A model generated the notes under the pieces. It was not told the origin of the DNA. It saw nothing but the letters and a program-made list of their open reading frames with translations, and made no database searches. A stretch of 64,000 nucleotides of DNA from Angustibacter sp. Root456. GTDB lineage: Bacteria > Actinomycetota > Actinomycetes > Actinomycetales > Angustibacteraceae. The stretch spans positions 159,902 to 223,901 of the forward strand of contig NZ_LMER01000016.1 in assembly GCF_001426435.1 (NCBI RefSeq). Reading direction: 5' to 3'. Shown piece after piece: positions 4,251 through 49,292 of the stretch. Position 1 is the stretch's first letter. Every line of letters starts with the position of its first letter. Both the position numbers and the translations under genes were made by a program.

Positions 4251-5840
4251 ATGATCGCCCCGTCGCACGCTGATCCGGCGTGGGCGCCGCGGCCGGCGCT
4301 GGCCCTCGGGGTCCGCGTGGGGCAGTACGGCGTCCCGCTGATCGCCGGGACGGCCGCGACGTGGACCCTCGCGCCGGTGCTCGCCGGCCGCCTGCCGGTC
4401 GTGGCAGCCAGCGGGCTGGCCGTGCTGGCTGCCGTCGTGGTGAGCCTGGTCGTGTCGCGGTTGACCATGCGGCTGGCCCCGCTCGCGGTGATGCTGCAGA
4501 TGACGATGATCTTCCCCGACCACGCGCCGAGCCGGCTGAAGGTGGCCCGCCGCTCGACGAGCGCCGACGAGATCCGCCGCCAGCTGCTGAGCGACGCGCC
4601 CGACGAGCAGGAGGCCGCGGTCACGATGCTCGCGCTCGTGACCGCCCTCGGCCAGCACGACCGGCACACGCGCGGTCACAGTGAACGGGTGCGGCTGTTC
4701 TGCGACCTGCTCGCCCGCGAGCTCGGGCTGTCCGAGGCGGACGCCGGCCGGTTGCGGTGGGCGGCCCTGATCCACGACATCGGCAAGCTCGAGATCAGCG
4801 CGACCGTCCTCAACAAGCCCGGACGCCTCGACGCGAGCGAGTGGTCGCTGGTGCGGATGCACCCGCAGGCCGGTGCGCGGCTGGCCCGGCCGCTGGCCGT
4901 CTGGCTGGGGCCGTGGTTCGCCGGCATCGTCGAGCACCACGAGCGCTACGACGGCGGTGGCTACCCGCAGGGGCTCGCCGGTTCGCAGATCTCGCTCGCG
5001 GGGCGTGCGGTGGCCGTGGTCGACGCGTTCGAGACCATGACGGCCGCGCGGTCGTACCGGGCGGCCGTCACCGCCGTCGCGGCGCGGGCCGAGCTCACGC
5101 GCTGCGCGGGCTCGCACTTCGACCCCGCGGTGGTGCGCGCCTTCCTGTCGATCGCCCTGCCGCGGCTGCTGTGGTCGGTGGGCCCGCTCGCCTTCTGCCT
5201 CAACGTCCCGTTCCTGCGGTGGATCGGCGACGGGGGAGTGCGGTTCGCCCAGGCCGCCTCGACCACCGCGACGACCGCCGCCAACGCGGCGGGCGTGACG
5301 GCTGCGGTCGTCGCCACGGGCGCGCTGCCGTCGGCGGCAACCCCCGTGCCACCGGCCCCGCCTGTTCAGCGGCCGGCTGCCGTGACCGTCTCAGACCACG
5401 CGGGCGGCGGGGCGAGCGAGCGCGTCGGGACGGGCAGCGTGCCGACGGGGGAGCCGACGTCCGGTGCGACGTCCGCACCGACGTCCGCACCGACGTCCGC
5501 ACCGACGTCCGCGCCGACGCCCGCGCCGACGGGCCGCCCGAGGTCGGGGCCGGCCGATGCGTCGACCTCCCGGCCGACACGAGCCTCGAAGCAGGGGCAC
5601 GCCGCAGCGACCCCGCAGGGGCCTGCGGCCGGGCACGGTCGGCCGGAGCAGCAGCCGACCCCGCCGGGGCGCGGGCCCGGCCAGAGCACCGGCCAGAGCA
5701 CCGGCCAGAGCACCGGCCAGAGCACCGGCCAGAGCACGGCCGAGCCCGCGAGCACCGGCCAGCCGACGTCGGCCCCCGGACCGGGTCGTCACGCGTCGCC
5801 CGAGGCGACACCGCCGTCGGTCGGCGACGGCCGCCACTGA
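4251..5840 (+). CDS. HD-GYP domain protein with membrane anchor and repeat-rich tail
   Basis: The 529-residue protein has three parts. Two hydrophobic segments at about 22-90 anchor it. A central HD-GYP phosphodiesterase domain spans about 130-300, with HTRGHSERVR, the HD pair in LIHDIGKLEI, HPQAGARL and the defining HHERYDGGGYPQGL. A tail of about 180 residues is rich in Pro, Ala, Thr, Ser and Gly, with two near-perfect tetrapeptide repeats (APTS and GQST). HD-GYP domains hydrolyse cyclic di-GMP to pGpG or GMP; the metal ligands look intact. Another hydrophobic segment (LPRLLWSVGPLAFCLNVPFL) follows the domain, so the tail may face outward. Oligoribonuclease, which clears pGpG, is encoded about 13 kb away. 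Confidence 0.88.
   Translation: MIAPSHADPAWAPRPALALGVRVGQYGVPLIAGTAATWTLAPVLAGRLPVVAASGLAVLAAVVVSLVVSRLTMRLAPLAVMLQMTMIFPDHAPSRLKVARRSTSADEIRRQLLSDAPDEQEAAVTMLALVTALGQHDRHTRGHSERVRLFCDLLARELGLSEADAGRLRWAALIHDIGKLEISATVLNKPGRLDASEWSLVRMHPQAGARLARPLAVWLGPWFAGIVEHHERYDGGGYPQGLAGSQISLAGRAVAVVDAFETMTAARSYRAAVTAVAARAELTRCAGSHFDPAVVRAFLSIALPRLLWSVGPLAFCLNVPFLRWIGDGGVRFAQAASTTATTAANAAGVTAAVVATGALPSAATPVPPAPPVQRPAAVTVSDHAGGGASERVGTGSVPTGEPTSGATSAPTSAPTSAPTSAPTPAPTGRPRSGPADASTSRPTRASKQGHAAATPQGPAAGHGRPEQQPTPPGRGPGQSTGQSTGQSTGQSTGQSTAEPASTGQPTSAPGPGRHASPEATPPSVGDGRH
5468..5527 (+). repeat. 12-bp tandem repeat (GACGTCCGCACC), five units, in coding DNA
   Basis: Five consecutive units at 5468, 5480, 5492, 5504 and 5516; the first three are identical and the last two vary slightly. 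Each unit encodes Thr-Ser-Ala-Pro, giving the APTS run in the tail of the HD-GYP protein. The 12-bp period keeps the frame, so copy number can change by slippage without destroying the protein. Confidence 0.9.
5679..5738 (+). repeat. 12-bp tandem repeat (GGCCAGAGCACC), five units, in coding DNA
   Basis: Five adjoining units at 5679, 5691, 5703, 5715 and 5727, the last differing in its final base. They encode Gly-Gln-Ser-Thr repeats in the HD-GYP protein tail. The near-perfect identity suggests recent expansion. Confidence 0.92.
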
Positions 5841-5918
5841 CTTCGCACGGTGGTCGGTCCACGGGCGCCCGAGGCTGAGCGGTGGCGGCTCGCGGGGGGT
5901 CGTGACTTACTCGACGTC

Positions 5919-6614
5919 ATGACGACGGACACCTTCAAGGACCTGGCCGCGGTGGTGCTCGTCGACCGAGCGCTCGACGACGTGCTCCGTGAGATCGCCT
6001 CGATCGCCAACCGGGCGCTCGCGGGGGCGGAGGCGTCGTCGATCACGCTCGTGCGCGGCGACCGCGCCTGGACGGCGGCCCACACCGACCAGCTCGCCCT
6101 GGACGCCGACGAGCTGCAGTACGAGGGCGGCCACGGCCCGTGCATGGACGCCGGACGCACGGGCCTCACCATGCACGTCCCCGACCTGCGCGCCGACGAC
6201 CGGTGGCCGACGTACGCGCCCCGCGCCGTCGAGCGGGGGGTGCTCAGCTCGCTGTCGGTGCCGTTGCCCTTCCAGGGCCGCACCATCGGCGCGCTCAACA
6301 ACTACGCGAGCTCGGCGGGCGCCTTCACGGACGACGACATGCGGGCCGCTGACCACATCACCAGCTACATCGGCACCGCGGTGATGAACGCCGACGCGCA
6401 CGCGGGCGCGACCGCGGGAGCGGAGCAGATGCGGGCGGCCCTGGACTCGCGCAAGGTGATCGACATGGCCCTCGGCGTCCTGGTCGCCCGGCACCACTGC
6501 ACGGCGGACGAGGCGTTCGCCCTGCTGTCGAAGGCGTCGCAGAACCACAACCGCAAGCTGCGCGACCTGGCCGCCGCGCTGGTGGAGTCGGAGGGGCGCG
6601 AGCCGGCGACCTGA
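5919..6614 (+). CDS. GAF-ANTAR domain protein (RNA-binding antiterminator type)
   Basis: A 231-residue cytoplasmic signalling protein. An N-terminal GAF sensor covers about residues 10-160 (NRALAGAEASSITLVRGDRA, GGHGPCMDAGRTG, VLSSLSVPLPFQGRTIGALN). A C-terminal ANTAR domain covers about 170-225 (ALDSRKVIDMALGVLVARH, then TADEAFALLSKASQNHNRKL). ANTAR domains bind paired RNA hairpins and prevent termination. The ATG at 5919 was chosen because the GAF domain begins right after it; the longer GTG version adds only low-complexity residues. The gene ends before a strong hairpin and is followed by a convergent tRNA-Lys. Its RNA targets are not evident here. Confidence 0.87.
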   Translation: MTTDTFKDLAAVVLVDRALDDVLREIASIANRALAGAEASSITLVRGDRAWTAAHTDQLALDADELQYEGGHGPCMDAGRTGLTMHVPDLRADDRWPTYAPRAVERGVLSSLSVPLPFQGRTIGALNNYASSAGAFTDDDMRAADHITSYIGTAVMNADAHAGATAGAEQMRAALDSRKVIDMALGVLVARHHCTADEAFALLSKASQNHNRKLRDLAAALVESEGREPAT

Positions 6615-7132: not shown

Positions 7133-7148
7133 AGGGACCTTCGCCCCT
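7133..7148. promoter_or_regulatory. DosR/DevR-like box before the flavodoxin-NifJ operon
   Basis: AGGGACCTTCGCCCCT is an imperfect palindrome close to the mycobacterial DosR core GGGAC-N4-GTCCC. It starts 80 bp before the flavodoxin start, a usual place for an activator. Nearly the same string lies before the gene at 41045 (40993-41010), and a related one at 17135-17150. Confidence 0.5.
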
Positions 7149-7212
7149 GACCTGGGCGGGAGGGCCGACCTAGCGTCAGCAGCACGGCGCTGGTGTACGA
7201 GGGAGGCGCGAG

Positions 7213-7752
7213 GTGTCGATGCACGTGCTGGTCGCCTACGCCAGCCAGCGGGGCTCGACGGCGGAGATCGCCGAGCACCTCGCGGCTCGCCTGCGCGAGC
7301 ACGGAATGGAGTGCACGGTGCGCGGCGTCGATCACGACCCGCGCCCGGAGTCCTTCGACGCCGTGGTGCTGGGCAGCGCCGTGCAAGGTGCCGCGCTGCT
7401 GCCGGAGGCGGTCGCGTACGCCCGGCGCAACGAGCGTGCGCTCACGAGTCGCCCGCTGTGGCTGTTCAGCGTCGGTCTGCAGCCGTCGGCCGGCCACCAC
7501 CGGCGTGCGTTCGCCCGGCTCATCGCGAGCTCGCCGCCGCAGGACGTGCCGCAGCTGCGCCTGGCCCTGCACCCGCTCGACTACCACGCGTTCGCCGGCG
7601 TGCTGCGGGCGCACGAGACGCCACCGGCGCAGCGCTGGCTCTACCGCCTGCTCGGCGGCCAGTTCGGGGACTTCCGCGACTGGCACCAGATCGACGCGTG
7701 GGCCGAGGGCATCGCCGCCCGGCTGGCGACCGGCACCCTGACGGGCAGCTGA
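7213..7752 (+). CDS. Flavodoxin-domain protein (HemG-like)
   Basis: A 179-residue cytoplasmic flavoprotein. The N-terminus VLVAYASQRGSTAEIAEHLA is the FMN phosphate-binding loop of flavodoxins. A second loop, DAVVLGSAVQGAALLPEAV, and a long W/R/H-rich C-terminal part resemble the flavodoxin-type protoporphyrinogen oxidase HemG and related proteins. As first gene of an operon with NifJ it could be an electron carrier or regulator; the length exceeds a plain short-chain flavodoxin. The GTG at 7213 has GGAGG six bases upstream. The ATG at 7219 (two codons later) has AGG five bases upstream and is equally possible. Confidence 0.8.
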   Translation: MSMHVLVAYASQRGSTAEIAEHLAARLREHGMECTVRGVDHDPRPESFDAVVLGSAVQGAALLPEAVAYARRNERALTSRPLWLFSVGLQPSAGHHRRAFARLIASSPPQDVPQLRLALHPLDYHAFAGVLRAHETPPAQRWLYRLLGGQFGDFRDWHQIDAWAEGIAARLATGTLTGS

Positions 7753-7794
7753 CGAGACCGACGAGACGAGAACCAGAGACCGAGGAAGGTAGCC

Positions 7795-8100
7795 ATGGGC
7801 GAGGACCGCTGGTGGGACCACATGGACGACATGATGGACGGCCGGCACATGGGCGGTGCGTCGTGGTGGCCGCTGTGGTGGGTGCTGCTGATGCTCGTCG
7901 TCGTCGCGGTGGTGGCGCTCGTCGTGCTCAGCACCCGCCCACGGACGACGCCCCCGGCGGCCCCGCCCGTGCCGCCGACCGCCCACGGCTCGCCGACGAC
8001 CGACCCGGCGGAGGCGCTCCTGCGCGAGCGGTTCGCGCGCGGCGAGATCGACCAGGCGGAGTACGACGAACGCCTGGCGCGACTGCGGGTCAGCCGTTGA
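7795..8100 (+). CDS. SHOCT-domain single-pass membrane protein
   Basis: A 101-residue protein. The N-terminus is rich in Trp, Met, His and Asp (WWDHMDDMMDGRHMGG), a possible metal-binding patch. One membrane helix follows at about 23-45 (WWPLWWVLLMLVVVAVVALV), then a Pro/Thr linker. The end is a SHOCT motif, LLRERFARGEIDQAEYDERL. SHOCT modules are short C-terminal oligomerisation segments on many actinobacterial membrane proteins. The gene lies 42 bp after the flavodoxin gene and its stop overlaps the TTG start of the next gene, so all are probably cotranscribed. Confidence 0.82.
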   Translation: MGEDRWWDHMDDMMDGRHMGGASWWPLWWVLLMLVVVAVVALVVLSTRPRTTPPAAPPVPPTAHGSPTTDPAEALLRERFARGEIDQAEYDERLARLRVSR

Positions 8101-9754
8101 CGGGGGCACCGGAGGGCGGTGGCTCGGGCGCGGCGCCGGCCGACCTCACACCGCTGCCCGACCTCGTGCACGGCCGGGGCCGGGCCGGCCCGGTGCGCGA
8201 CCGGCGTCCGGTGTACGTCGACCTGCTGCCACCGTGCAACGCCGGGTGCCCCGCCGGGGAGAACATCCAGTCCTGGCTGGCGCACGTCAGTGCAGGGCGT
8301 CACGAGCAGGCGTGGCGAGCGCTCGTGGCTGACAACCCGTTGCCGGCGGTGCACGGCCGCGCCTGCTACCACCCGTGCGAGAACGTCTGCAACCGAGCGC
8401 GGCTCGACAGCTCGGTGTCGATCCACTCCGTCGAGCGCTTTCTGGGGGACCTCGCACTCGAGCGCGGCTGGGCGTTCGACCCGCCACCCGACCGCTCGGG
8501 CCGTCGCGTCCTCGTCGTCGGGGCCGGCCCGAGCGGCCTGTCCGCCGCCTACCACCTGGCGCGCAGGGGGCATGACGTCGAGGTCCGCGACGTCGGTGCC
8601 GCCCCCGGAGGCATGATGCGCTACGGCATCCCGGCCTACCGCCTCCCGCGAGACGTGCTGGACGCCGAGATCGCGCGGATCGCGGGCCTGGGCGTGCGCT
8701 TCACCACGGAGCACCGGGTCGAGGATCTCGCCGCCGAGCGCGCGGCCGGTGGTTTCGACGCCGTCTTCGTCGCGGTCGGGGCCCACCTGGCCAAGCGGGT
8801 CGACATCCCCGCGGGTGACGCGGGGCACATCATCGACGCCGTCTCCTTCCTGCGCAGCGTCTCGGAGGGGGAGCGGCCGGTGATCGGCCGGCGCGTCGCG
8901 GTCTACGGCGGCGGCAACACCGCGATGGACGCCGCCCGGGTGGCTCGGCGCCTGGGCGCCCAGGATGCCGTCGTCGTCTACCGGCGCACCCGCGCGCAGA
9001 TGCCGGCCCACGAGGACGAGGCGGCGGACGCGGAGCAGGAGGGTGTGCGCCTGAACTGGTTGCGCACCATCACGGCCTTCGAGGGTCCGCAGCTGCAGGT
9101 AGAGGTCATGGAGCTCGACGACACGGGCTTCCCGCAGCCCACGGGTCGGTTCGAGACGCTGTCGGCTGACACCGTGATCCTGGCGCTGGGCCAGGAGACC
9201 GAGTCGGCGTTCATGGCGGCCCTGCCCGGCGTCGAGTTCGAGCGCGACGGCTCGGTGCGCGTGTCGGCGACCATGATGACGGGCTTTCCGGGCGTGTTCG
9301 CCGGGGGTGACATGGTGCCCAGTGAGCGCACGGTCACGGTGGGGGTGGGCCACGGCAAGAAGGCGGCCCAGCAGATCGACGCCTGGTTGCGGTCGACGTC
9401 GTCCGAGGAGCCGGTGAAGCACCCTGAGGTGGGCTTCGACGACCTGCACCTGTGGTACTTCGGCGACGCCGCCCGACGTGCCCAGCCCGAGGTGGCGCCG
9501 CAGCAGCGCGTCAGCGACTTCGCCGAGGTCGTCGGGGGCCTCGATGGGCCGAGTGCGACGTTCGAAGCGGGCCGCTGCCTGTCGTGCGGCAACTGCTTCG
9601 AGTGCGACGGCTGCTTGGGCGCCTGCCCGGAGGACGCCGTCATCAAGCTGGGCGCCGGCCACCGCTACCGCTTCGACTACGACCGCTGCACCGGCTGTGC
9701 GACCTGCTACGAGCAGTGCCCGGTGCACGCGATCGACATGCGGGCGGAGCCGAC

Positions 9755-9758
<4 letters not shown>
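8097..9758 (+). CDS. GltD-like NAD(P)H oxidoreductase with ferredoxin clusters
   Basis: A 553-residue Fe-S flavoprotein related to the glutamate synthase small subunit. The N-terminal Cys set is CNAGCPAGE (Cys47, Cys51) and CYHPCENVC (from Cys90). A first dinucleotide fold follows (VVGAGPSGLSAAYHLARRG, near 137), then a second (VAVYGGGNTAMDAARVARRL) and GVFAGGDMVPS near the end of the reductase core. The C-terminus adds two [4Fe-4S] motifs, CLSCGNCFECDGCLGACP (from Cys494) and CTGCATCYEQCP. It probably moves electrons between NAD(P)H and the ferredoxin-type clusters used by NifJ next door. The TTG at 8097 was chosen because the preceding stop overlaps it and residues before the GTG at 8166 look like native family sequence. 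No glutamate synthase large subunit is nearby. Confidence 0.85.
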
Positions 9759-13326
<3,568 letters not shown>

Positions 13327-13327
<1 letters not shown>

Positions 13328-14328
13328 TGGACCTCACCACGACCTACCTCGGGCTGGAGCTTCGAAACCCGCTCGTCGCCTCACCCTCACCGCTCTCGCG
13401 CACGGTCGACGGTGTGCGTCGGCTCGCGGGCGCAGGTGTCGGCGCGGTGGTGCTGCACTCGTTGTTCGAGGAGCAGGTGCGCCGTCGGGCCGCGCAGGAC
13501 GGTGTGCTGGCTGACGCGGGAGCCGACAGCTTCGCCGAGGCACTCTCGTACTTCCCGTCCACCACGGACGACGAGACCGGACCGCGCCGCTACCTCAGCC
13601 TCCTCGAGCGGGCGGTGGCAGCGGTCGACGTCCCGGTGATGGCGAGCCTCAACGGCGCCACGCCGGGGGGTTGGGAGGGCTACGCCCGCGCCATGCAGGA
13701 CGCCGGAGCCGCGGCGATCGAGCTGAACGTGTACTACCTGCCGGGTGAGCCGACTGTCTCGGGCCGCGACGTCGAGCAACGCCACCTCGACGCCCTGGCG
13801 CGGGTGCGCGCGGTGGTCAGCGTGCCGGTCGCCGTCAAGATCGCGCCGCACTTCAGCTCGATGGGGGAGATGGCGACCAGGCTGGACGCGGCGGGCGCCG
13901 ACGGCCTGGTGCTGTTCAACCGCTGGCTGCAGCCGGACATCGACCCCGAGACGCTGCGCGTGACGTCCGGTGTCGGCCTGTCGTCGCCGGCCGACGGCCG
14001 GCTGGTGCGCACGTGGGTCGCCTTGCTGCGCGGCCGGGTGCGGGCGTCGCTCGCGGCGACGAGCGGAGTCGAGACCGGCGATGACGTCGCCCGGCACCTC
14101 CTGGCGGGAGCTGACGTGGTCATGACGACGTCAGCCTTGCTGCGTCACGGGCCCAGCTACGCAGCGGTGCTCCTCGAGGATCTCTCGCAGTGGCTGCGGC
14201 GCAAGGGTCTTGCGACGGTCGACGACTGTCGCGGTCTGCTCTCGGTGCCCATGACCGCTGATGCCTCGGCGTTCGAGCGCGCGGCCTACGTCACCGACCT
14301 GCTCGACGCCGACCTCAGCCGGTGGTGA
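13327..14328 (+). CDS. Dihydroorotate dehydrogenase-like flavoprotein, probably not PyrD
   Basis: A 333-residue TIM-barrel protein of the PyrD superfamily. The start MDLTTTYLGLELRNPLVASP is typical, followed by VPVMASLNGATPGGWEGYA and VAVKIAPHFSSMGEMA. The FMN phosphate loop appears near ATSGVETGDDVARHLLAGADVV. The loop that carries the catalytic Cys or Ser in true enzymes (ELN-x-SCPN in class 1A) reads ELNVYYLPGEPT here, with Tyr at that place by eye, so pyrimidine synthesis is doubtful. The ATG overlaps the nifJ stop (TGATG). It therefore looks like a redox partner or maturation protein of the NifJ module. Confidence 0.82.
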
Positions 14329-17134: not shown

Positions 17135-17150
17135 AGGGGCCTTTGCCCCG
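17135..17150. promoter_or_regulatory. DosR-like box before the LAL regulator gene
   Basis: AGGGGCCTTTGCCCCG matches the site at 7133-7148 in 13 of 16 positions and is itself an almost perfect palindrome (GGGGC...GCCCC). It lies about 85 bp before the minus-strand LAL gene. It follows the stop of the small gene at 17200-17424 and could also act as that gene's terminator, so the regulatory reading is weaker than for the other two sites. Confidence 0.35.
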
Positions 17151-40992: not shown

Positions 40993-41010
40993 GCGGACCT
41001 TCGGCCCTGG
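40993..41010. promoter_or_regulatory. DosR/DevR-like box before the 41-49 kb operon
   Basis: GCGGACCTTCGGCCCTGG begins at the last base of the preceding stop codon region and lies about 35 bp before the GTG at 41045. It shares GGACCTTCG and CCCTG with the site at 7133. The gene behind it has the domain make-up of the DosR-regulon protein Rv0571c. Confidence 0.55.
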
Positions 41011-41044
41011 ATCGACGCGGCCGGCAGGCGGGAGGGTCGAGGGC

Positions 41045-42388
41045 GTGGAGCGCGTGCACCGTTTCGCCGACCGCGCCGACGCCGGCCGCCGGCTCGCCGA
41101 CCACCTGGCCGCACGCCCGTGGCCGGCCGGCCAGGTCGTGGTGCTGGGCGTCCCCCGCGGTGGGGTTCCCGTCGCCGTCCCGGTGGCTCAGGCCCTCGGG
41201 GCGCCGCTCGACGTCCTCGTCGTCCGCAAGCTCGGCCTGCCGTACCAGCGCGAGCTGGCCATGGGCGCCGTGGGCGAGGGCGGGGTGCGGGTGCTCAACG
41301 AAGAGGTGCTGCGCCGCTCGGGCGTGACGGCGGCGCAGCTGGCGGCGGTGCAGGGCGACGAGCAGCGCGAGGTCGATGTGCGCTGCGCGCGGTTCCGCCC
41401 CGGCCGCCAGGCGCTGCCGCTGGCCGGGCGCGTCGCGGTGGTGGTGGACGACGGCATCGCCACCGGCTCGACCATGCGCGCGGCCTGCCAGATCGCCCGA
41501 GCCAGTGGCGCCCAGCGCGTCGTCGTGGCCGTGCCCGTGGCCTCGCGGGAGGCAGTCGAGGTCGTGCGGCGCGACGCCGACGAGGTGGTGGTCCTCTCGG
41601 TGCCGCCGTGGTTCTCGAGCGTCGGCCAGTGGTACGACGACTTCGCGCAGGTCTCGGACGACACGGTCGCGCGGCTGCTCGCCGAGAGCACCACCGCGCC
41701 GAGGCCCGCCACGCTTGACCCGGAAGTGACGGTGCCCGCCGGGGACGTCGACCTCGCGGCCACGCTGACCGTGCCGGCGTCGCCCGTGGGCGTCATCGCG
41801 TTCGCGCACGGCAGCGGCAGCAGCCGGCACAGCCCCCGCAACCGGTACGTCGCCGGGCGGCTGCAGCAGGCCGGGCTGGCGACGCTGCTGCTCGACCTGC
41901 TCACCGCGCAGGAGGACGGTCGGCGCGACCTCGTCTTCGACGTCCCGCTGCTGAGCGAGCGGCTGGGTGCAGCCTGCCGCTGGCTGGCGCACGACGCGCG
42001 CACGCGCGGGCTGCCGCTCGGCCTGTTCGGTGCCAGCACCGGGGCCGCGGCCGCGATCGCGACGGCCGCGGATCCGGCGTCCACGGTGCAGGCCGTGGTG
42101 AGCCGGGGCGGGCGGCCCGATCTGGCGCCCGATCACCTGCCGCTCGTGCGGGCCCCCACCTTGCTGGTCGTCGGCGGTGACGACGACGTGGTGCTCGAGC
42201 TCAACCAGCGCGCCCAGGAGCGCTTGCGGTGCCCGAGCCGGCTGGTGGTGGTGCCGGGGGCGACCCACCTGTTCGAGGAGCCCGGGACGCTGGAGCAGGT
42301 GGCCGACCTGGCCGCCGGCTGGTTCACCACGCACCTGCACCCGCCCGCCGCCCAGCCCTCTCACCACCCGGTGGACGCCGATGGCTGA
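41045..42388 (+). CDS. Phosphoribosyltransferase-dienelactone hydrolase fusion (Rv0571c-like)
   Basis: A 447-residue two-domain protein. Residues 1-215 are a phosphoribosyltransferase fold: VVVLGVPRGGVPVAVPVAQA, LDVLVVRKLGLPYQRELAMG, and the PRPP loop VAVVVDDGIATGSTMRA. PPWFSSVGQWYDDFAQVSDD is a typical ending. Residues 225-440 are an alpha/beta hydrolase: GVIAFAHGSGSSRHSPRNRY, the nucleophile elbow GLFGASTGAAAA, TLLVVGGDDDVV and the final His in VPGATHLFEEPG. M. tuberculosis Rv0571c (443 residues, DosR regulon) has the same domain pair. The real reaction is not known. Start GTG at 41045 follows GGGAGGGTCGAGGGC. Confidence 0.88.
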   Translation: MERVHRFADRADAGRRLADHLAARPWPAGQVVVLGVPRGGVPVAVPVAQALGAPLDVLVVRKLGLPYQRELAMGAVGEGGVRVLNEEVLRRSGVTAAQLAAVQGDEQREVDVRCARFRPGRQALPLAGRVAVVVDDGIATGSTMRAACQIARASGAQRVVVAVPVASREAVEVVRRDADEVVVLSVPPWFSSVGQWYDDFAQVSDDTVARLLAESTTAPRPATLDPEVTVPAGDVDLAATLTVPASPVGVIAFAHGSGSSRHSPRNRYVAGRLQQAGLATLLLDLLTAQEDGRRDLVFDVPLLSERLGAACRWLAHDARTRGLPLGLFGASTGAAAAIATAADPASTVQAVVSRGGRPDLAPDHLPLVRAPTLLVVGGDDDVVLELNQRAQERLRCPSRLVVVPGATHLFEEPGTLEQVADLAAGWFTTHLHPPAAQPSHHPVDADG

Positions 42389-45365
42389 CGACCCCCCTGG
42401 GCTGGGCTTCCCCGACCACACCGCCGCGGCAGTGGTGCTCGACTGGGATGGCACGGCGGTCGCCGACCGTCGAGCACCCGCCACGGCGGTGCGCCGGCGC
42501 ATCGAACGCCTGTGCGCCACGGGTGTGCACGTGGCCGTCGTGAGTGGCACGCACGTCGAGAACGTCGACGGCCAGCTGCGCGCTCGACCGAGCGGCCCGG
42601 GCCACCTGCTGCTCGCCACGAACCGCGGGTCGGAGCTGTACGAGGTGCGCGATGACGGCCCGTGGCTGCTCACCCGCCGTACGGCCACGCCGGTCGAGGA
42701 CGACGCCCTCGACGCCGCCGCCCAGCAGGTGGCGCACGCGCTGGTGGCGCGCGGTCTCGGCGGCGTCGTGGTGCGGCGGCTGAACCGACGCAAGATCGAC
42801 CTGCTGCCCGAGCCGGCCTGGGCCGAGCCACCGAAGGCCCGCATCGCCGAGCTCGTCGACGAGGTGACGCGCCGAGCGCGGGCGGCCGGCTTCGGCGGCC
42901 TGCCCGACGTCGTGACGCTCGCGCTCACCGCCGCCCGCGACGCCGGATTGCCCGACCCACGCGTCACGAGCGACGCCAAGCACGTCGAGATCGGTCTCAC
43001 CGACAAGTCCGACGCGATGCGGGCACTGCTGGCGCGGTGGTGGCGGATCGGCGTCGGCCCCGGGCTGCTGCTCGTCGCGGGTGACGAGTTCGGGCCCCTG
43101 GGCGGCGCGCCCGGCAGCGACTCGATGATGCTCGTGCCCGAAGCCGCGAGGGCCGTCGTGGTCTCGGTGGGTGTGGAGCCGTCAGGGGTGCCGGCTGGCG
43201 TCCGCTGGCTCGGCGGTGGGCCGGCGCGCTTCGTGCAGCTGCTCGACGACCAGCTCGTGCGTCATGCCCGCCGCCGCGCACCGGTGGTCGACGCCGATCC
43301 GGCGTGGACGGTGGTCGAGACCGGCGCCGACCCGTTGCGCCACCGCATCACCGAGACGCTGTTCACCACGGGCGCCGGGGGGATGGCGGTGCGCGGCTCG
43401 ACCGAGGAGGCGGCGTCCGTGCCGCTGCTCCTCGCGGCCGGCGTCTACCACCGCCGCGGCCCCGACCAGCACCTGCTGCCCGGGCCGTCGTGGACCGAGC
43501 TGGAGGTGGCACCCTCGCCGCAACAGGACGTGCGCGTGCTCGACCTGCGCACGGGTGTGCTGGCCCGCGAGGAGGTCGGCGGTACCGGCCCGCCGGTGCG
43601 CTCCGTGCGGTTCTGCAGCGCCAGCCGGCCCGGCGTGATGGCGCTGCGCACCGAGGCGGCGCCAGGCCGGCTGCGCCCGGGGCCGACGTTCCGAGCACCG
43701 GCTGCGCTGCCGATGCCCCACGGCCGCCTCGCCGCTGGCCCGTGGGCGCGGGTGGCGAGCGACCTCGGCGGGGGCATCGCAGCCGTGGCGCAGCAGTCCG
43801 TCGGCCGTGGTGAGGTGCGGTCGGTGGAGCGGATCGTCGCCCTCACGGCCGACGCCCGTCGGCAACCGTCGCTGGCTGCCGCCCACCAGGCGCTGCGCGA
43901 GGCGGCGGCTCTGGGTTTCGACGCCCTGCTCGCCGAGCACCGCGCCGCCTGGGCCGAACGCTGGGACGCCGTCGACGTCCGCATCCCCGACGACCCGGAC
44001 GCCGAGCGAGCCGTGCGGTTCGCCCTCTTCCAGCTGTGGTGCAACACCGGACGCCACGACGAGCTGGCCGTGGGCGCTCGGGGCCTGTCGGGGCCCGGCT
44101 ACCTCGGCCACGTGTTCTGGGACGCCGACGTGTTCGTGCTGCCCGCACTCGTCGCCATCGACCCGTCGTCGGCGCACGCGATGGTGCGCTACCGGCTGCA
44201 CCGGCTGGGTGCAGCGCGGGCGAGCGCGCGCGCCGCCGGCCACGCAGGTGCGCGCTTCCCGTGGGAGTCGGCCGCCGCCGGCGACGACGTGACGCCGGTG
44301 AGCGTGGCGATCGGCGCGCAGCCCGCCCCCGTGCTGACGGGCCGTCAGGAGGAGCACATCACCGCGGACGTCGCCTGGGCCGCCCTGCAGTGCGCCCACT
44401 GGAGCGGACGCCGCCTCCAGCCGGGGTCGGCCGAGCTCGAGCTGGTGCTCGACACCGCTCGGTACTGGACGAGCAGGTGCCGCACGGACTCCGAGGGCCG
44501 GGCGCACCTCGACGGCGTGATGGGCCCGGACGAGTACCACGACTCGGTCGACGACAACGCCTACACGAACGTGATGGCGCGCTGGAACCTGCGCACCGCA
44601 GCGGATCTCGCGGAACCGTGGGGGCTGTGTCCGGCCGAGGCGCCGGCGTGGCGCGCGCTCGCTGACGCCCTCGTCGACGGCTACGACCCGGCCACCGGGC
44701 TGTACGAGCAGTTCCGCGGCTACCACCGGCTCGAGCCGCTCCTCGCGGCCGATCTGGCGCCCCCGCCCATGGCCGCGGACGTGCTGTTCGGCCGTGACCG
44801 GGTCGCCGCTTCGCAGGTCATCAAGCAGCCGGACGTGCTCATGCTGCACCACCTGGTGCCGGACGACGTGGCGCCCGGCTCGCTGGTCACCAACCTCGAC
44901 CACTACGGCCCGCGCACCGCCCACGGGTCGTCACTGTCGCCGGCGATCTCGGCGTCGCTGCTGGCGCGAGCGGGGCGCCCGGACGACGCCCTCGTGATGC
45001 TGCGCCAGGCGCTCGCCATCGACCTCGGCGACGAGCACGGCATGACCGCCGCCGGTCTGCACCTGGGCACGCTCGGGGGTGTGTGGCAGGCCATGCTGGT
45101 GGGCTTCCTGGGTGCGCGCGTGCGCGGTGGCGTCCTGCTGCTCGACCCCGTGCTGCCGCGGGCCTGGCCGAGCCTGAGGCTGCGTTTTCGGTGCTTGGGT
45201 CGGCGGGTGCGCGTCCACGTCGACTCCACTCACGTGCACGTCGACGTCGACGGCCGCGTGCCGGTTGCGGTGGGAACCGGCCCGGTGCAGGTCGTGTCGA
45301 AGCGCGCCCGCGTCGAGCGCGCTGACCACCAGCCATCTGCGATCCAGGGGGTGCGAGGTGCCTGA
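42381..45365 (+). CDS. HAD phosphatase-GH65 fusion (OtsB1/Rv2006-like)
   Basis: A 994-residue fusion. Residues 1-290 are a HAD phosphatase of the trehalose-6-phosphatase kind (AVVLDWDGTAVADRRAP with the DWDGT nucleophile motif, LLLATNRGSELYEV, LLLVAGDEFGPLGGAPGSD). Residues 320-985 are a GH65 domain: HVFWDADVFVLPALVAIDPS, MGPDEYHDSVDDNAYTNVMA with the catalytic acid Glu, VIKQPDVLML, and TAAGLHLGTLGGVWQAMLVG. GH65 enzymes are trehalose, maltose or kojibiose phosphorylases and hydrolases. M. tuberculosis Rv2006 (OtsB1, DosR regulon) has both domains. The start overlaps the previous gene by eight bases. Confidence 0.9.
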   Translation: MADDPPGLGFPDHTAAAVVLDWDGTAVADRRAPATAVRRRIERLCATGVHVAVVSGTHVENVDGQLRARPSGPGHLLLATNRGSELYEVRDDGPWLLTRRTATPVEDDALDAAAQQVAHALVARGLGGVVVRRLNRRKIDLLPEPAWAEPPKARIAELVDEVTRRARAAGFGGLPDVVTLALTAARDAGLPDPRVTSDAKHVEIGLTDKSDAMRALLARWWRIGVGPGLLLVAGDEFGPLGGAPGSDSMMLVPEAARAVVVSVGVEPSGVPAGVRWLGGGPARFVQLLDDQLVRHARRRAPVVDADPAWTVVETGADPLRHRITETLFTTGAGGMAVRGSTEEAASVPLLLAAGVYHRRGPDQHLLPGPSWTELEVAPSPQQDVRVLDLRTGVLAREEVGGTGPPVRSVRFCSASRPGVMALRTEAAPGRLRPGPTFRAPAALPMPHGRLAAGPWARVASDLGGGIAAVAQQSVGRGEVRSVERIVALTADARRQPSLAAAHQALREAAALGFDALLAEHRAAWAERWDAVDVRIPDDPDAERAVRFALFQLWCNTGRHDELAVGARGLSGPGYLGHVFWDADVFVLPALVAIDPSSAHAMVRYRLHRLGAARASARAAGHAGARFPWESAAAGDDVTPVSVAIGAQPAPVLTGRQEEHITADVAWAALQCAHWSGRRLQPGSAELELVLDTARYWTSRCRTDSEGRAHLDGVMGPDEYHDSVDDNAYTNVMARWNLRTAADLAEPWGLCPAEAPAWRALADALVDGYDPATGLYEQFRGYHRLEPLLAADLAPPPMAADVLFGRDRVAASQVIKQPDVLMLHHLVPDDVAPGSLVTNLDHYGPRTAHGSSLSPAISASLLARAGRPDDALVMLRQALAIDLGDEHGMTAAGLHLGTLGGVWQAMLVGFLGARVRGGVLLLDPVLPRAWPSLRLRFRCLGRRVRVHVDSTHVHVDVDGRVPVAVGTGPVQVVSKRARVERADHQPSAIQGVRGA

Positions 45366-46113
45366 AGTCGTTGCCGCAGTGACCGATGAGGCCAGGCGCG
45401 GACCCGTGCTCGACGTCGCCAGCGCCGTGGCGTCGTTGATGCGAGCGCGCGTGCGGGAGGTCGGCGTCGCCTCCGACGACCCCGACCGCGCTGCCCTCGC
45501 GGTGCTGGAGGCACTGGAACCGGCCGACGTGCTGGTGGGCGTCGTCCCGGCCGCGGTCGACCCCGCAGCCCCGTCGTGGCGGGTCATGCGCGAGTCGACC
45601 AAGCCGTTGGTGCTGCTGCCACCGGACCTGCCCAGCGGCCCGAACCCGATCGGGCGCGTGCTGGTGCCGCTCGACGGCTCCCGCGAGTGCGCGCGCGCCG
45701 TGGAGCACACCATCGAGCTGTGTCGCCGAGCGGACGTCGACCTGGTCGTGCTGCACGTCTTCGGCCCGGGGACGGCGCCGCCGTACTGGGACCAGGACGT
45801 GCACGCCCTCAACGTGTGGGCCGAGGAGTTCATGTCTCGGCACGTCCGCGGAGCCGGCGTGCGGCTCGAGGTGCGGGTGGGGGCGCCGGAGGACAGCGTG
45901 GTCGAGGTGGCCGAGGGGCTCGGAGCCGACCTCATCGCGCTGGGGTGGTCACAGCGGTTGGAGGACGGCCGGGCCCGGACGGTGCGCCGCTCGGTGCTCG
46001 AGGCGCACGTCCCCGTCATGCTCGTGCCAGTGAGCGGACGCGACGCCGATGGCGAGGACCCGCCGCAGGGACGTTGGGCCCTGGCCGAGCAACCGGGCGC
46101 GAGGATGTCCTGA
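45358..46113 (+). CDS. Universal stress protein, tandem or N-extended
   Basis: A 251-residue protein. The clear UspA domain begins near residue 100: PIGRVLVPLDGSRECARAVE, HTIELCRRADVDLVVLHVFG and VVEVAEGLGADLIALGWSQR. The first 95 residues (PEVVAAVTDEARRGPVLDVA and STKPLVLLPPDLPSGPN) look like a degenerate first Usp domain. The ATP-binding G-2X-G-9X-G(S/T) motif is not evident in the C-terminal domain, so nucleotide binding is doubtful. GTG at 45358 overlaps the GH65 stop by eight bases. Usp proteins are abundant in dormancy regulons. Confidence 0.85.
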   Translation: MPEVVAAVTDEARRGPVLDVASAVASLMRARVREVGVASDDPDRAALAVLEALEPADVLVGVVPAAVDPAAPSWRVMRESTKPLVLLPPDLPSGPNPIGRVLVPLDGSRECARAVEHTIELCRRADVDLVVLHVFGPGTAPPYWDQDVHALNVWAEEFMSRHVRGAGVRLEVRVGAPEDSVVEVAEGLGADLIALGWSQRLEDGRARTVRRSVLEAHVPVMLVPVSGRDADGEDPPQGRWALAEQPGARMS

Positions 46114-46116
46114 GCC

Positions 46117-47181
46117 ATGCGTATCGGCATCGTGGCGCCCCCGTGGCTCCCGGTGCCGCCGACGAGCTACGGCGGCATCGAGGCGATGATCGACGGGCTC
46201 GCGCGCGGGCTGAGCCACATGGGGCACGACGTGCGGCTCTTCACGGTGGCCGTGTCGACCTGCCCCGTGCGGCGGCTGGCGTTGTTCGGTGAAGCCCAGG
46301 ACGACATGGGCCAGGCGCTGACCGAGGCCGCGCACGTGGCGGCGGCGTACGAGGCGCTGCAGGACGTCGACGTGATCCACGACCACACGCTGCTCGGCCC
46401 GCTGGTGGGCCCGCTCACGATCGACCACGCCGGCGCGGCACCCGGCCCGCCGGTGGTGCTCACCCACCACAACCCGTTCACGCCCGAGGCGGCTCGCGTG
46501 CTGAGCGTCGTGGCGAGACGCGCCACCGTCGTGGCGGTGTCGCACGCCCACGCCAGGTCGGCGCACGGCGTGCCGGTCGGAGCCGTCGTCCACCACGGGG
46601 TCGATGTCAAGCGCTACCACCCGCGCCCCTCGGCCGAGCATGGCTACCTGCTGTTCCTGGGGCGGATGTCGCCCGACAAGGGGGTCCACGTGGCGGTACG
46701 GGTCGCCGCGCGCACAGGACGGCAGCTGGTGATCGCCACCAAGATGCGCCAACCCGAGGAGGTCGCCTACTACGAACGCGAGGTGGCGCCGCTGCTCGGT
46801 CCGGGTGCCGAGCGGCCCGAGGAGGCGACCCTGGAGGAGGCCACCGCGCTGCTCGCGGGCGCCAGCGCGCTGCTCAACCCCATCGCGTGGCCGGAACCGT
46901 TCGGCATGGTGATGATCGAGGCGCTCGCCAGCGGGACGCCGGTGATCGCGTTCCCCCACGGAGCGGCACCGGAGATCGTCGACCACGGACGCACCGGCTT
47001 CCTGTGCGGTGGTGAGGACGCCATGGTCGAGGCGGTGCGGCGGATCGACGAGCTCGACCGCGGCGACTGCCGCATCGCCGCCGAGCGCCGCTTCTCGATC
47101 GAGCGGATGGCGCGCGACTACCTCGGCCTGTACCTGCGCGTGCAGCGAGCCGCCCACCACGATCCGGCGCTGCTGCCGTGA
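46117..47181 (+). CDS. Glycosyltransferase family 4
   Basis: A 354-residue GT-B glycosyltransferase. N-terminal half: RIGIVAPPWLPVPPTSYGGI EAMID (split), VIHDHTLLGPLVG, VVLTHHNPFTPEA. C-terminal nucleotide-sugar half: GYLLFLGRMSPDKGVHVAVR and WPEPFGMVMIEALASGTPVI with the E-x7-E motif, followed by GAAPEIVDHGRTGFLC. Only four bases separate it from the Usp gene and it overlaps the next start (GTGA). The acceptor is unknown; an alpha-glucan or trehalose-type glucoside would suit the neighbours. Confidence 0.92.
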   Translation: MRIGIVAPPWLPVPPTSYGGIEAMIDGLARGLSHMGHDVRLFTVAVSTCPVRRLALFGEAQDDMGQALTEAAHVAAAYEALQDVDVIHDHTLLGPLVGPLTIDHAGAAPGPPVVLTHHNPFTPEAARVLSVVARRATVVAVSHAHARSAHGVPVGAVVHHGVDVKRYHPRPSAEHGYLLFLGRMSPDKGVHVAVRVAARTGRQLVIATKMRQPEEVAYYEREVAPLLGPGAERPEEATLEEATALLAGASALLNPIAWPEPFGMVMIEALASGTPVIAFPHGAAPEIVDHGRTGFLCGGEDAMVEAVRRIDELDRGDCRIAAERRFSIERMARDYLGLYLRVQRAAHHDPALLP

Positions 47182-49292
47182 CGACGGACCCGTGGGCGTT
47201 CGAGGAGGCGCCCGCGAGCGAGGGTCTCGGAGCGGGGGCCATCACCGTCGTCGAGGGATCCAGCTTCTGCATCAGCGACGCCGACGGCAGCATCCGCACC
47301 GGCAGCTCACAAGGCGTGTACGTGCGCGACATCCGCCTGCTGTCGCGCTGGGAGCTACTCGTCGACGGCCAGCCACCGGAGGCCATGACCGTGCGGCACC
47401 CCGAGCCGTTCAGTGCCGAGATCATCACCTGGCGGCCGAGGGCGCGCGACGTGCGGCCGGCCCTGCTCATCGTGCGCCGCCGGTACGTCGGGCACGGCAT
47501 GCGCGAGGACCTCGACGTCGTCAACGACTCGGCCCAGCCGGTGTCGTGCCGCCTCACCCTGCTCGTCGACACCGACTTCGCCGACGTCTTCGAGGTCAAG
47601 GCGGGCACGGCGCCCGCGAACGGCTGGTCGCGGCGCGAGGTGGTGCCCGGCGTCCTGACGCTGACCCGCCGCCGAGGGGAACGGTCAGTGGCCGTCGAGG
47701 TGCGCGGCGACGACGGCGCCGACATCGGCCCGGCGGGGCTGTCGTGGAGCCTGGACCTGCCGGCTCGGGGCACGTGGTCGACGTCCGTGGAGGTGGTGGG
47801 CGTCTTCGACGGCGACCGGCTGCCGCTGCGCCACCCCCGCGGGCTGCCGGTCGAGCACACCGACCCCGCGCAGCGGCTGCGGGACTGGCGGCGCAGCAGC
47901 CCGCTCATGCGCACCGCCGACCCCGACCTCGCCCGAGTCCTGCAGCGCAGCGTCGAGGACCTCGGCACGTTGCGCATCTTCGACCCGGCGCACCCCGACC
48001 GCGTCGTGGTGGCCGCCGGCGCCCCGTGGTTCATGGCGCCGTTCGGCCGCGACTCGCTGCTGACGTCGTGGATGGTGCTGCCGGTCGACACCTCGCTCGC
48101 CCTCGGCACGCTGCAGACCCTCGCCGACCACCAGGGCCGCGCGCTCGACCCGGCGTCGGAGGAGGAGCCCGGGCGCATCGTGCACGAGCTGCGGCTCGGC
48201 CCGGCTGCGCACCTGTCGCTCGGCGGGCGCAGCGCCTACTACGGCAGCGTCGACGCCACCCCCCTGTTCGTGATGCTGCTCGGCGAGCTCGCGACGTGGG
48301 ACGTGTTCGACGACCGGCTGCGCGCCCTGCTCCCCGCCGCCGACCGGGCGCTGGAGTGGGTCGAGCACCACGGCGACGTCGACGGCGACGGCTTCGTCGA
48401 GTACGAGCGCAAGACCGAGCGGGGACTGGTCAACCAGGGCTGGAAGGACTCCGGCGACGGCGTGAACTTCGCCGACGGGTCGGTGGCCCGGGCCCCCATC
48501 GCCCTGGCCGAGGTGCAGGGCTACGTGTACGCCGCGTACCGCGCGCGGGCGCGGCTGGCCGAGTGCGCCGGTGACCCAGTGGGAGTGCGGCGCTGGACCG
48601 AGCGCGCCGAGGCGCTGCGCCGGCGCTTCGACGAGCAGTTCTGGCTTCCTGAGCGCGGGTGGTACGCCGTGGCGCTCGACGCCGACAAGCGCCCGGTCGA
48701 CGCGCTCACCTCCAACCTCGGGCACTGTCTGTGGACCGGCATCGTCGCCGAGGCGCGCGCACCCCGGCTCGCCGAGCTGCTGACCTCGCCGCGGCTCTTC
48801 AGCGGGTGGGGCGTGCGCACGCTGGCGACCGACATGGGCGCCTACGACCCGCTCAGCTACCACAACGGCTCGGTGTGGCCGCACGACACGGCGCTGTGCG
48901 TCAGCGGGCTGATGCGGTATGGCTTCGTCGAGCAGGCGCAGCAGGTCGCCGTCGCGCTGCTCGAGGCGGCCGCCCACTTCGGTCACCGACTGCCCGAGCT
49001 GTTCTGCGGGCACGCGCGGGACCAGGTGGGCGTTCCGGTGCCCTACCCGACATCGTGCTCGCCGCAGGCCTGGGCGGCGGCCGCCCCGCTCGAGCTGCTG
49101 CGGGCGCTGCTGCGCCTCGAACCGCAGGTGCACCGCGGTCGGCTGCGCTGCGCACCGGCGGTGCCTGAGCAGTACCTGCCGCTCGACCTCGTGAACCTGC
49201 GCCTCGGGCGCTCGCGGGTCGCGCTGCAGGTGACCGCGACCGACTGGCGGCTCGACACGCTCGCTGGTCCGGCGCTGGAGCTCCTCGAGTAG
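47178..49292 (+). CDS. Glycogen-debranching-enzyme-like glucosidase
   Basis: A 704-residue protein. The N-terminal GDE_N_bis domain covers about 15-240 (ITVVEGSSFCISDADGSIRT, GVYVRDIRLLSRWELLVDGQ). The C-terminal amylo-alpha-1,6-glucosidase (alpha/alpha) domain covers about 265-690: APWFMAPFGRDSLLTSWMVL, VDGDGFVEYERKTERGLVNQ, then GWKDSGDGVNFADGS and YDPLSYHNGSVWPHDTALCV. It should act on alpha-glucan branches or glucosides. It is the last gene of the five-gene operon and starts in a GTGA overlap. It ends six bases before a convergent gene. Confidence 0.92.
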   Translation: MTTDPWAFEEAPASEGLGAGAITVVEGSSFCISDADGSIRTGSSQGVYVRDIRLLSRWELLVDGQPPEAMTVRHPEPFSAEIITWRPRARDVRPALLIVRRRYVGHGMREDLDVVNDSAQPVSCRLTLLVDTDFADVFEVKAGTAPANGWSRREVVPGVLTLTRRRGERSVAVEVRGDDGADIGPAGLSWSLDLPARGTWSTSVEVVGVFDGDRLPLRHPRGLPVEHTDPAQRLRDWRRSSPLMRTADPDLARVLQRSVEDLGTLRIFDPAHPDRVVVAAGAPWFMAPFGRDSLLTSWMVLPVDTSLALGTLQTLADHQGRALDPASEEEPGRIVHELRLGPAAHLSLGGRSAYYGSVDATPLFVMLLGELATWDVFDDRLRALLPAADRALEWVEHHGDVDGDGFVEYERKTERGLVNQGWKDSGDGVNFADGSVARAPIALAEVQGYVYAAYRARARLAECAGDPVGVRRWTERAEALRRRFDEQFWLPERGWYAVALDADKRPVDALTSNLGHCLWTGIVAEARAPRLAELLTSPRLFSGWGVRTLATDMGAYDPLSYHNGSVWPHDTALCVSGLMRYGFVEQAQQVAVALLEAAAHFGHRLPELFCGHARDQVGVPVPYPTSCSPQAWAAAAPLELLRALLRLEPQVHRGRLRCAPAVPEQYLPLDLVNLRLGRSRVALQVTATDWRLDTLAGPALELLE

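Follow-up and report, generated by a model that had tools for sequence, protein, structure and literature searches.

The window considered here, a 64,000-nucleotide stretch of Angustibacter sp. Root456 DNA (contig C16, positions 159902-223901 of a GC-rich genome of 3.84 Mb in 20 contigs), contains a tight run of five genes headed by a 16-bp palindrome at 7133; the fourth gene encodes a pyruvate:ferredoxin oxidoreductase (PFOR), and the run ends at 14328. Further along lies a set of storage-glucan-type genes, in which a box at 40993 heads an Rv0571c-like gene followed by genes for a GH65 protein and a universal stress protein (USP), and another at 46067 heads a GT4 glycosyltransferase and a debranching enzyme. 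With gene coordinates taken from our own GC-frame gene calls, the relevant features are:

7133-7148, + strand: candidate DosR-type box AGGGACCTTCGCCCCT, before the flavodoxin-PFOR operon (motif scan and matrix)
7171-7176, + strand: -10-like TAGCGT, 22 nt downstream of the 7133 box
7213-7752, + strand: Flavodoxin_5 protein (Pfam PF12724), first gene of the operon
7795-8100, + strand: small membrane protein of 101 aa (ORF with coding GC pattern)
8145-9758, + strand: Fer4_20/pyridine-nucleotide oxidoreductase (GltD-like) with a C-terminal ferredoxin domain; start approximate
9755-13327, + strand: pyruvate:ferredoxin (flavodoxin) oxidoreductase, NifJ/PFOR, 1190 aa
13327-14328, + strand: dihydroorotate-dehydrogenase-like protein (PF01180), last gene of the operon
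17135-17150, - strand: claimed third site AGGGGCCTTTGCCCCG, before a MalT/LuxR gene; unproven
40993-41008, + strand: candidate DosR-type box GCGGACCTTCGGCCCT, before the Rv0571c-like gene (motif scan and matrix)
41032-41037, + strand: -10-like GAGGGT downstream of the 40993 box, with a GTG start at 41045
41045-42388, + strand: phosphoribosyltransferase and alpha/beta hydrolase fusion (Rv0571c-like)
42381-45365, + strand: protein with a glycoside hydrolase family 65 domain (PF03632/3/6)
45358-46113, + strand: universal stress protein (PF00582); start within 45358-45406
46067-46082, + strand: candidate DosR-type box AGGGACGTTGGGCCCT, inside the tail of the USP ORF
46117-47181, + strand: GT4-type glycosyltransferase
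47178-49292, + strand: amylo-alpha-1,6-glucosidase, glycogen-debranching family (PF14742/PF06202)

On the 5' side of the PFOR operon are genes for a GAF-ANTAR protein (5850-6614) and an HD-domain (HD_5) protein (4251-5840).

The three sequences singled out in a preliminary description of this DNA are all present as written (AGGGACCTTCGCCCCT at 7133-7148, GCGGACCTTCGGCCCT(GG) at 40993 and AGGGGCCTTTGCCCCG at 17135), and the boxes at 7133 and 40993, which it had placed 35-80 bp before start codons, lie 64-70 bp and 36 bp from them. Its grouping of the three as one shared box stands for these two and is doubtful for 17135, which has a low matrix score and is not conserved; the box at 46067, the strongest of the window and 34 bp before the GT4 gene, had been overlooked. 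Scanning the window with GGGACCTTNGNCCCTG (≤2 mismatches) returned 4 matches, i.e., the three noted sites and the 46067 box, vs. 0.62 expected, a count reached by no shuffle. The looser half-site pattern GGRCNNNNGNCCC gave 15 matches vs. 24 expected (no enrichment), so that the signal resides in the full box. When sites were ranked with a matrix built solely from the published OsdR sites of Streptomyces coelicolor (PMC5069765), 46067 came first (16.6), 7133 second (12.6) and 40993 fifth (11.4); simulated window-sized sequence reached top scores of 9.6-14.7, and 40993 is not separable from the window background by this matrix. The matrix alone is thus not decisive in a single window, and it is their position, the promoter geometry and the genome-wide data that give the boxes their significance.

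Genome-wide, AGGGACCTTCGGCCCT (≤2 mismatches) matched at 13 places, vs. 1 for its mirror-image control. An even spread of the motif inside and before genes, which the preliminary description had raised as an argument against regulation, was not found: at ≤3 mismatches, half of the motif matches (29/58) lay outside genes, vs. 4/29 for the mirror control (Fisher P 8e-4), and some of the “inside” matches sit just before a downstream start (46067, and C20:307248 before a USP gene). A box occurred within 200 bp of 6/12 USP genes and 0/26 LuxR-type control genes using a matrix partly trained on these same sites, and of 5 of the 12 vs. 0 of the 26 using the independent S. coelicolor-only matrix. More broadly, the genes anticipated as targets (USP, nitroreductase, flavodoxin, PPDK, and nitrate/molybdopterin-type enzymes) carry or neighbour boxes. 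A second cluster was observed at C19:40000-68000 (L278 and L279, two adjacent loci across which the PPDK pieces are spread), with several boxes, USPs, a cation P-type ATPase, a haem-oxygenase-like gene and a GNAT-fused acyl-CoA synthetase-like protein. The top score with the S. coelicolor matrix belongs to a perfect AGGGCCGTTCGGCCCT palindrome (L108:3989-4004; C3:31988) that precedes the gene for a 94-aa protein outside all known families.

A DevR-type regulator, whose absence the preliminary description had named as a ground for refutation, is encoded in the genome as a full-length, 213-aa response regulator (G000:C15:418866-419504, in L069). Its best PDB match is M. tuberculosis DevR/DosR (3c3w, E 7.7e-69 over 206 aa), followed by VraR (3e-45), and the recognition helix EKTVKNYV is retained. 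The adjoining, divergent gene encodes a DosS/DosT-type haem-GAF sensor kinase, whose GAF domain has its best matches in 2vzw, which we take to be DosT (named in the match table simply as “probable histidine kinase response regulator”), and in DevS GAF structures (E 3e-48 to 7e-43), and whose HisKA_3-type kinase region matches the DosS/DosT catalytic domains. HHPPM and FGNLY motifs are retained with the same proximal His/distal Tyr spacing, and this conserved pocket suggests that the domain is haem-binding; the sensor gene has a short stretch of N close to its 3' end. A candidate box is found 45 bp upstream of dosR itself, and others in the surroundings precede a pyridoxamine-oxidase-like gene, a USP gene and a second Flavodoxin_5 gene, with nitroreductase, hemerythrin, MFS and molybdopterin-oxidoreductase genes also near the pair. 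Directly 3' of dosR is an acetyl-CoA hydrolase/transferase gene (L069:8508-9746), a possible tie to acetate formation.

The boxes also share a promoter geometry, in which -10 spacing played no part in choosing the sites. TANNNT was rejected as the -10 form, being missing from most promoters, and the conserved form is a relaxed NANNNT; this was adopted after seeing the sequences, so that the comparison with controls is the fair test. The hexamer lies exactly 22 nt 3' of the box in 16/25 promoters and at 20-23 nt in 21/25 (shuffled maximum 10), and at 22 ± 1 nt in 22/30 intergenic matches, 6/27 genic matches and 1/29 mirror controls. At 46067, the sole -10-like hexamer is at 18 nt, outside the usual spacing. 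This hexamer spacing would place the box over the -35 position, as for the proximal site of M. tuberculosis DevR promoters (PMC3029386). In several promoters the start codon follows the hexamer by ~7 nt, which suggests that several transcripts are leaderless and begin at that codon (possibly including the one from the 40993 promoter), and leaderless transcription would account for the recurrent 34-36 bp between box and start. Since the palindrome alone is too common in GC-rich genomes, the box combined with the 22-nt -10 rule offers a sharper prediction of DosR-type promoters there.

If all three originally noted sites belonged to one regulon, DosR would in addition control the MalT/LuxR regulator, a cascade that would extend the main explanation. 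We consider this unlikely, at something like one chance in four: 17135 does have, towards MalT, a CATGGT at exactly the usual 22 nt (about 6% by chance) and lies 70 bp from the most upstream ATG of the MalT/LuxR ORF (183 bp from the gene-finder start), but both of its halves read GGGGC, it scores no higher than background (8.7, and 3.3 when the matrix is the S. coelicolor-only one, in which it falls outside the top 15 of the window), and no such box was found upstream of the 11 best MalT homologues, sister species included. The suggestion that the box also heads a regulator gene is thus unsupported by either matrix or conservation.

Other genomes of the order, among which the host family accounts for four in the search set, link the motif to dosR. 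In 43 genomes with a close DosR, 29 of 92 motif matches fell within 25 kb of dosR (1.05 expected), and in 45 genomes without one only 2 of 29 were near the best regulator. The dosR homologue of the sister species is preceded by a perfect core at a distance of about 90 bp. Across 149 genomes, split by the bit score of the best DosR match at a cut chosen by eye, those with a close DosR averaged 2.1 motif matches vs. 0.46 in the rest.

The closest published counterpart is the OsdR/OsdK regulon of S. coelicolor, which likewise has a DosR-type regulator, and among whose sites are CGGGACCTTCGGCCCT (SCO5979), bound as a probe in EMSA, and AGGGACCTTCGGCCCC (narG2, SCO0167) (PMC5069765). Here as in DosR/OsdR-type regulons generally, a 16-bp GGGNC-N4-GNCCC palindrome precedes the targets; its length is that of the OsdR palindrome, CGGGACCTTCGGCCCT and AGGGACCTTCGGCCCC occur as identical member sites, and USP, nitroreductase, pyridoxamine oxidase, PPDK, Zn-dehydrogenase and nitrate genes are shared targets. 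However, the consensus centre is mostly CCTTCG/CCAACG here vs. CGATCG in S. coelicolor, dosR and dosS are divergent here unlike OsdR/OsdK, and PFOR and debranching genes are absent from the published OsdR table (PMC5069765). The regulator and haem-GAF sensor are also homologous to M. tuberculosis DosR (DevR)/DosS/DosT. The GH65-domain protein presumably resembles M. tuberculosis Rv2006/OtsB1. Rv0571c, Rv2005c and Rv2006 belong to the M. tuberculosis DosR regulon (PMC2275270), which has Rv0571c-like and USP targets and a -35-overlapping box in common with the regulon predicted here (PMC3029386), whereas the GC-rich box with a GGCCC right half, the PFOR operon and the host lineage set the latter apart. 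PolS-PolR of Microlunatus phosphovorus is an actinobacterial oxygen-related two-component system discussed beside DevS/DosT; PolR was rejected as a closer relative, as it binds direct repeats (GTTCACnnnnnGTTCaC), a motif unlike the box here (PMC6754071).

Together, the motif excess, the linkage to dosR and the -10 geometry point to a DosR/OsdR regulon in another actinobacterium, and we estimate at roughly 0.87 the probability that the 7133, 40993 and 46067 boxes, as predicted from sequence, are bound by the genome's own DosR/OsdR-type regulator and form a low-oxygen switch for PFOR and polyglucan-type genes. The low-oxygen regulon proposed in the preliminary description is well supported by regulator and sensor homology, motif excess and promoter geometry; its location outside mycobacteria is likewise supported, but is not itself new, OsdR of Streptomyces being the precedent (PMC5069765). 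What appears new is the placing of a flavodoxin-PFOR operon and a GT4/debranching-enzyme pair under predicted DosR boxes, undescribed in the literature searched.

A different NarL/LuxR-type regulator of similar specificity might bind the boxes instead, such as the one at L068:11127-11777, which has another strong box nearby. The genome encodes at least 23 LuxR/GerE-domain proteins over the family cut-off, and one box match (C20:736748) lies about 2.4 kb from a regulator at C20:739147. However, boxes flank dosR and, in other genomes, gather near the closest DosR homologue, motif matches are few where a close DosR is missing, the box equals published OsdR sites, and the genes targeted are those known for DosR/OsdR, which together make another regulator quite improbable. 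Least probable of all is that the boxes have no regulatory role and arose as GC-rich palindromes in some other way (terminators, chance or DNA-structure elements). Although the window excess is only 4 vs. 0.62, and although 17135, close to where an opposite-strand ORF has its 3' end, is able to fold into a GC stem, RNA folding is ordinary at the 7133 and 17135 regions, the absence of a U-tract terminator around 17135 led us to reject a terminator or hairpin reading of that site, and the mirror control has no genome excess, intergenic bias or -10 spacing.

Under the preferred reading of a DosR/OsdR-type switch, falling oxygen, the signal suggested by the sensor's conserved haem pocket, would lead the sensor to phosphorylate the regulator. 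The regulator would then bind the 16-bp palindrome, whose end is about where a -35 would lie, and bring RNA polymerase to the weak NANNNT -10 located 22 ± 1 nt downstream (the geometry seen at 7133 and 40993). The flavodoxin/GltD-like/PFOR/DHODH-like operon (7213-14328) would probably be switched on, as would the polyglucan-type run of Rv0571c-like, GH65, USP, GT4 and debranching-enzyme genes (41045-49292), and storage-glucan use may thereby be coupled to low-potential pyruvate oxidation.

PFOR is rare in the order (13/396 genomes) and the sister species is without it. Boxes were found at four PFOR operons elsewhere (L144 and L146, with two each, L149, and L285, where the match is weak), with most other examined PFOR operons (Nocardia, Humibacillus, most of the order) having no convincing box. 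At L144:2936-2986, in a MAG of the Acidimicrobiaceae, an enolase gene is separated from a BON-GltD-PFOR operon by a gap containing two perfect inverted boxes with 35 bp between them; at L146:324-5996, from a Lapillicoccus MAG, the PFOR operon has PPDK and a DUF1918/Rv2632c-like gene as neighbours, and two boxes lie in the space between. A search for strong boxes ahead of Mycobacterium PFOR operons yielded only weak half-sites, in M. europaeum and M. attenuatum, that of M. europaeum with no -10 at the right distance. Two other genomes (L222 and L230) have a box 34 bp upstream of their Rv0571c-like homologues, and most such homologues in the order have none. A link from DosR to PFOR as a target was not found in the searched literature, a search thin on subscription papers.

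It is tempting to speculate, at somewhat less than even odds, that the DosR switch has been re-used as a fermentation switch here and in a few other actinobacteria, leading from polyglucan through pyruvate and PFOR/flavodoxin to acetyl-CoA, with PFOR operons recruited more than once (this genome, L144, L146, L149 and L285). Most work on DosR has concerned its part in M. tuberculosis as the dormancy switch; a fermentation switch, if true, would support active anaerobic energy metabolism rather than dormancy only, and a DosR regulon that includes a PFOR operon along with storage-glucan genes would, in other actinobacteria, connect this switch with the conservation of energy under anaerobic conditions.
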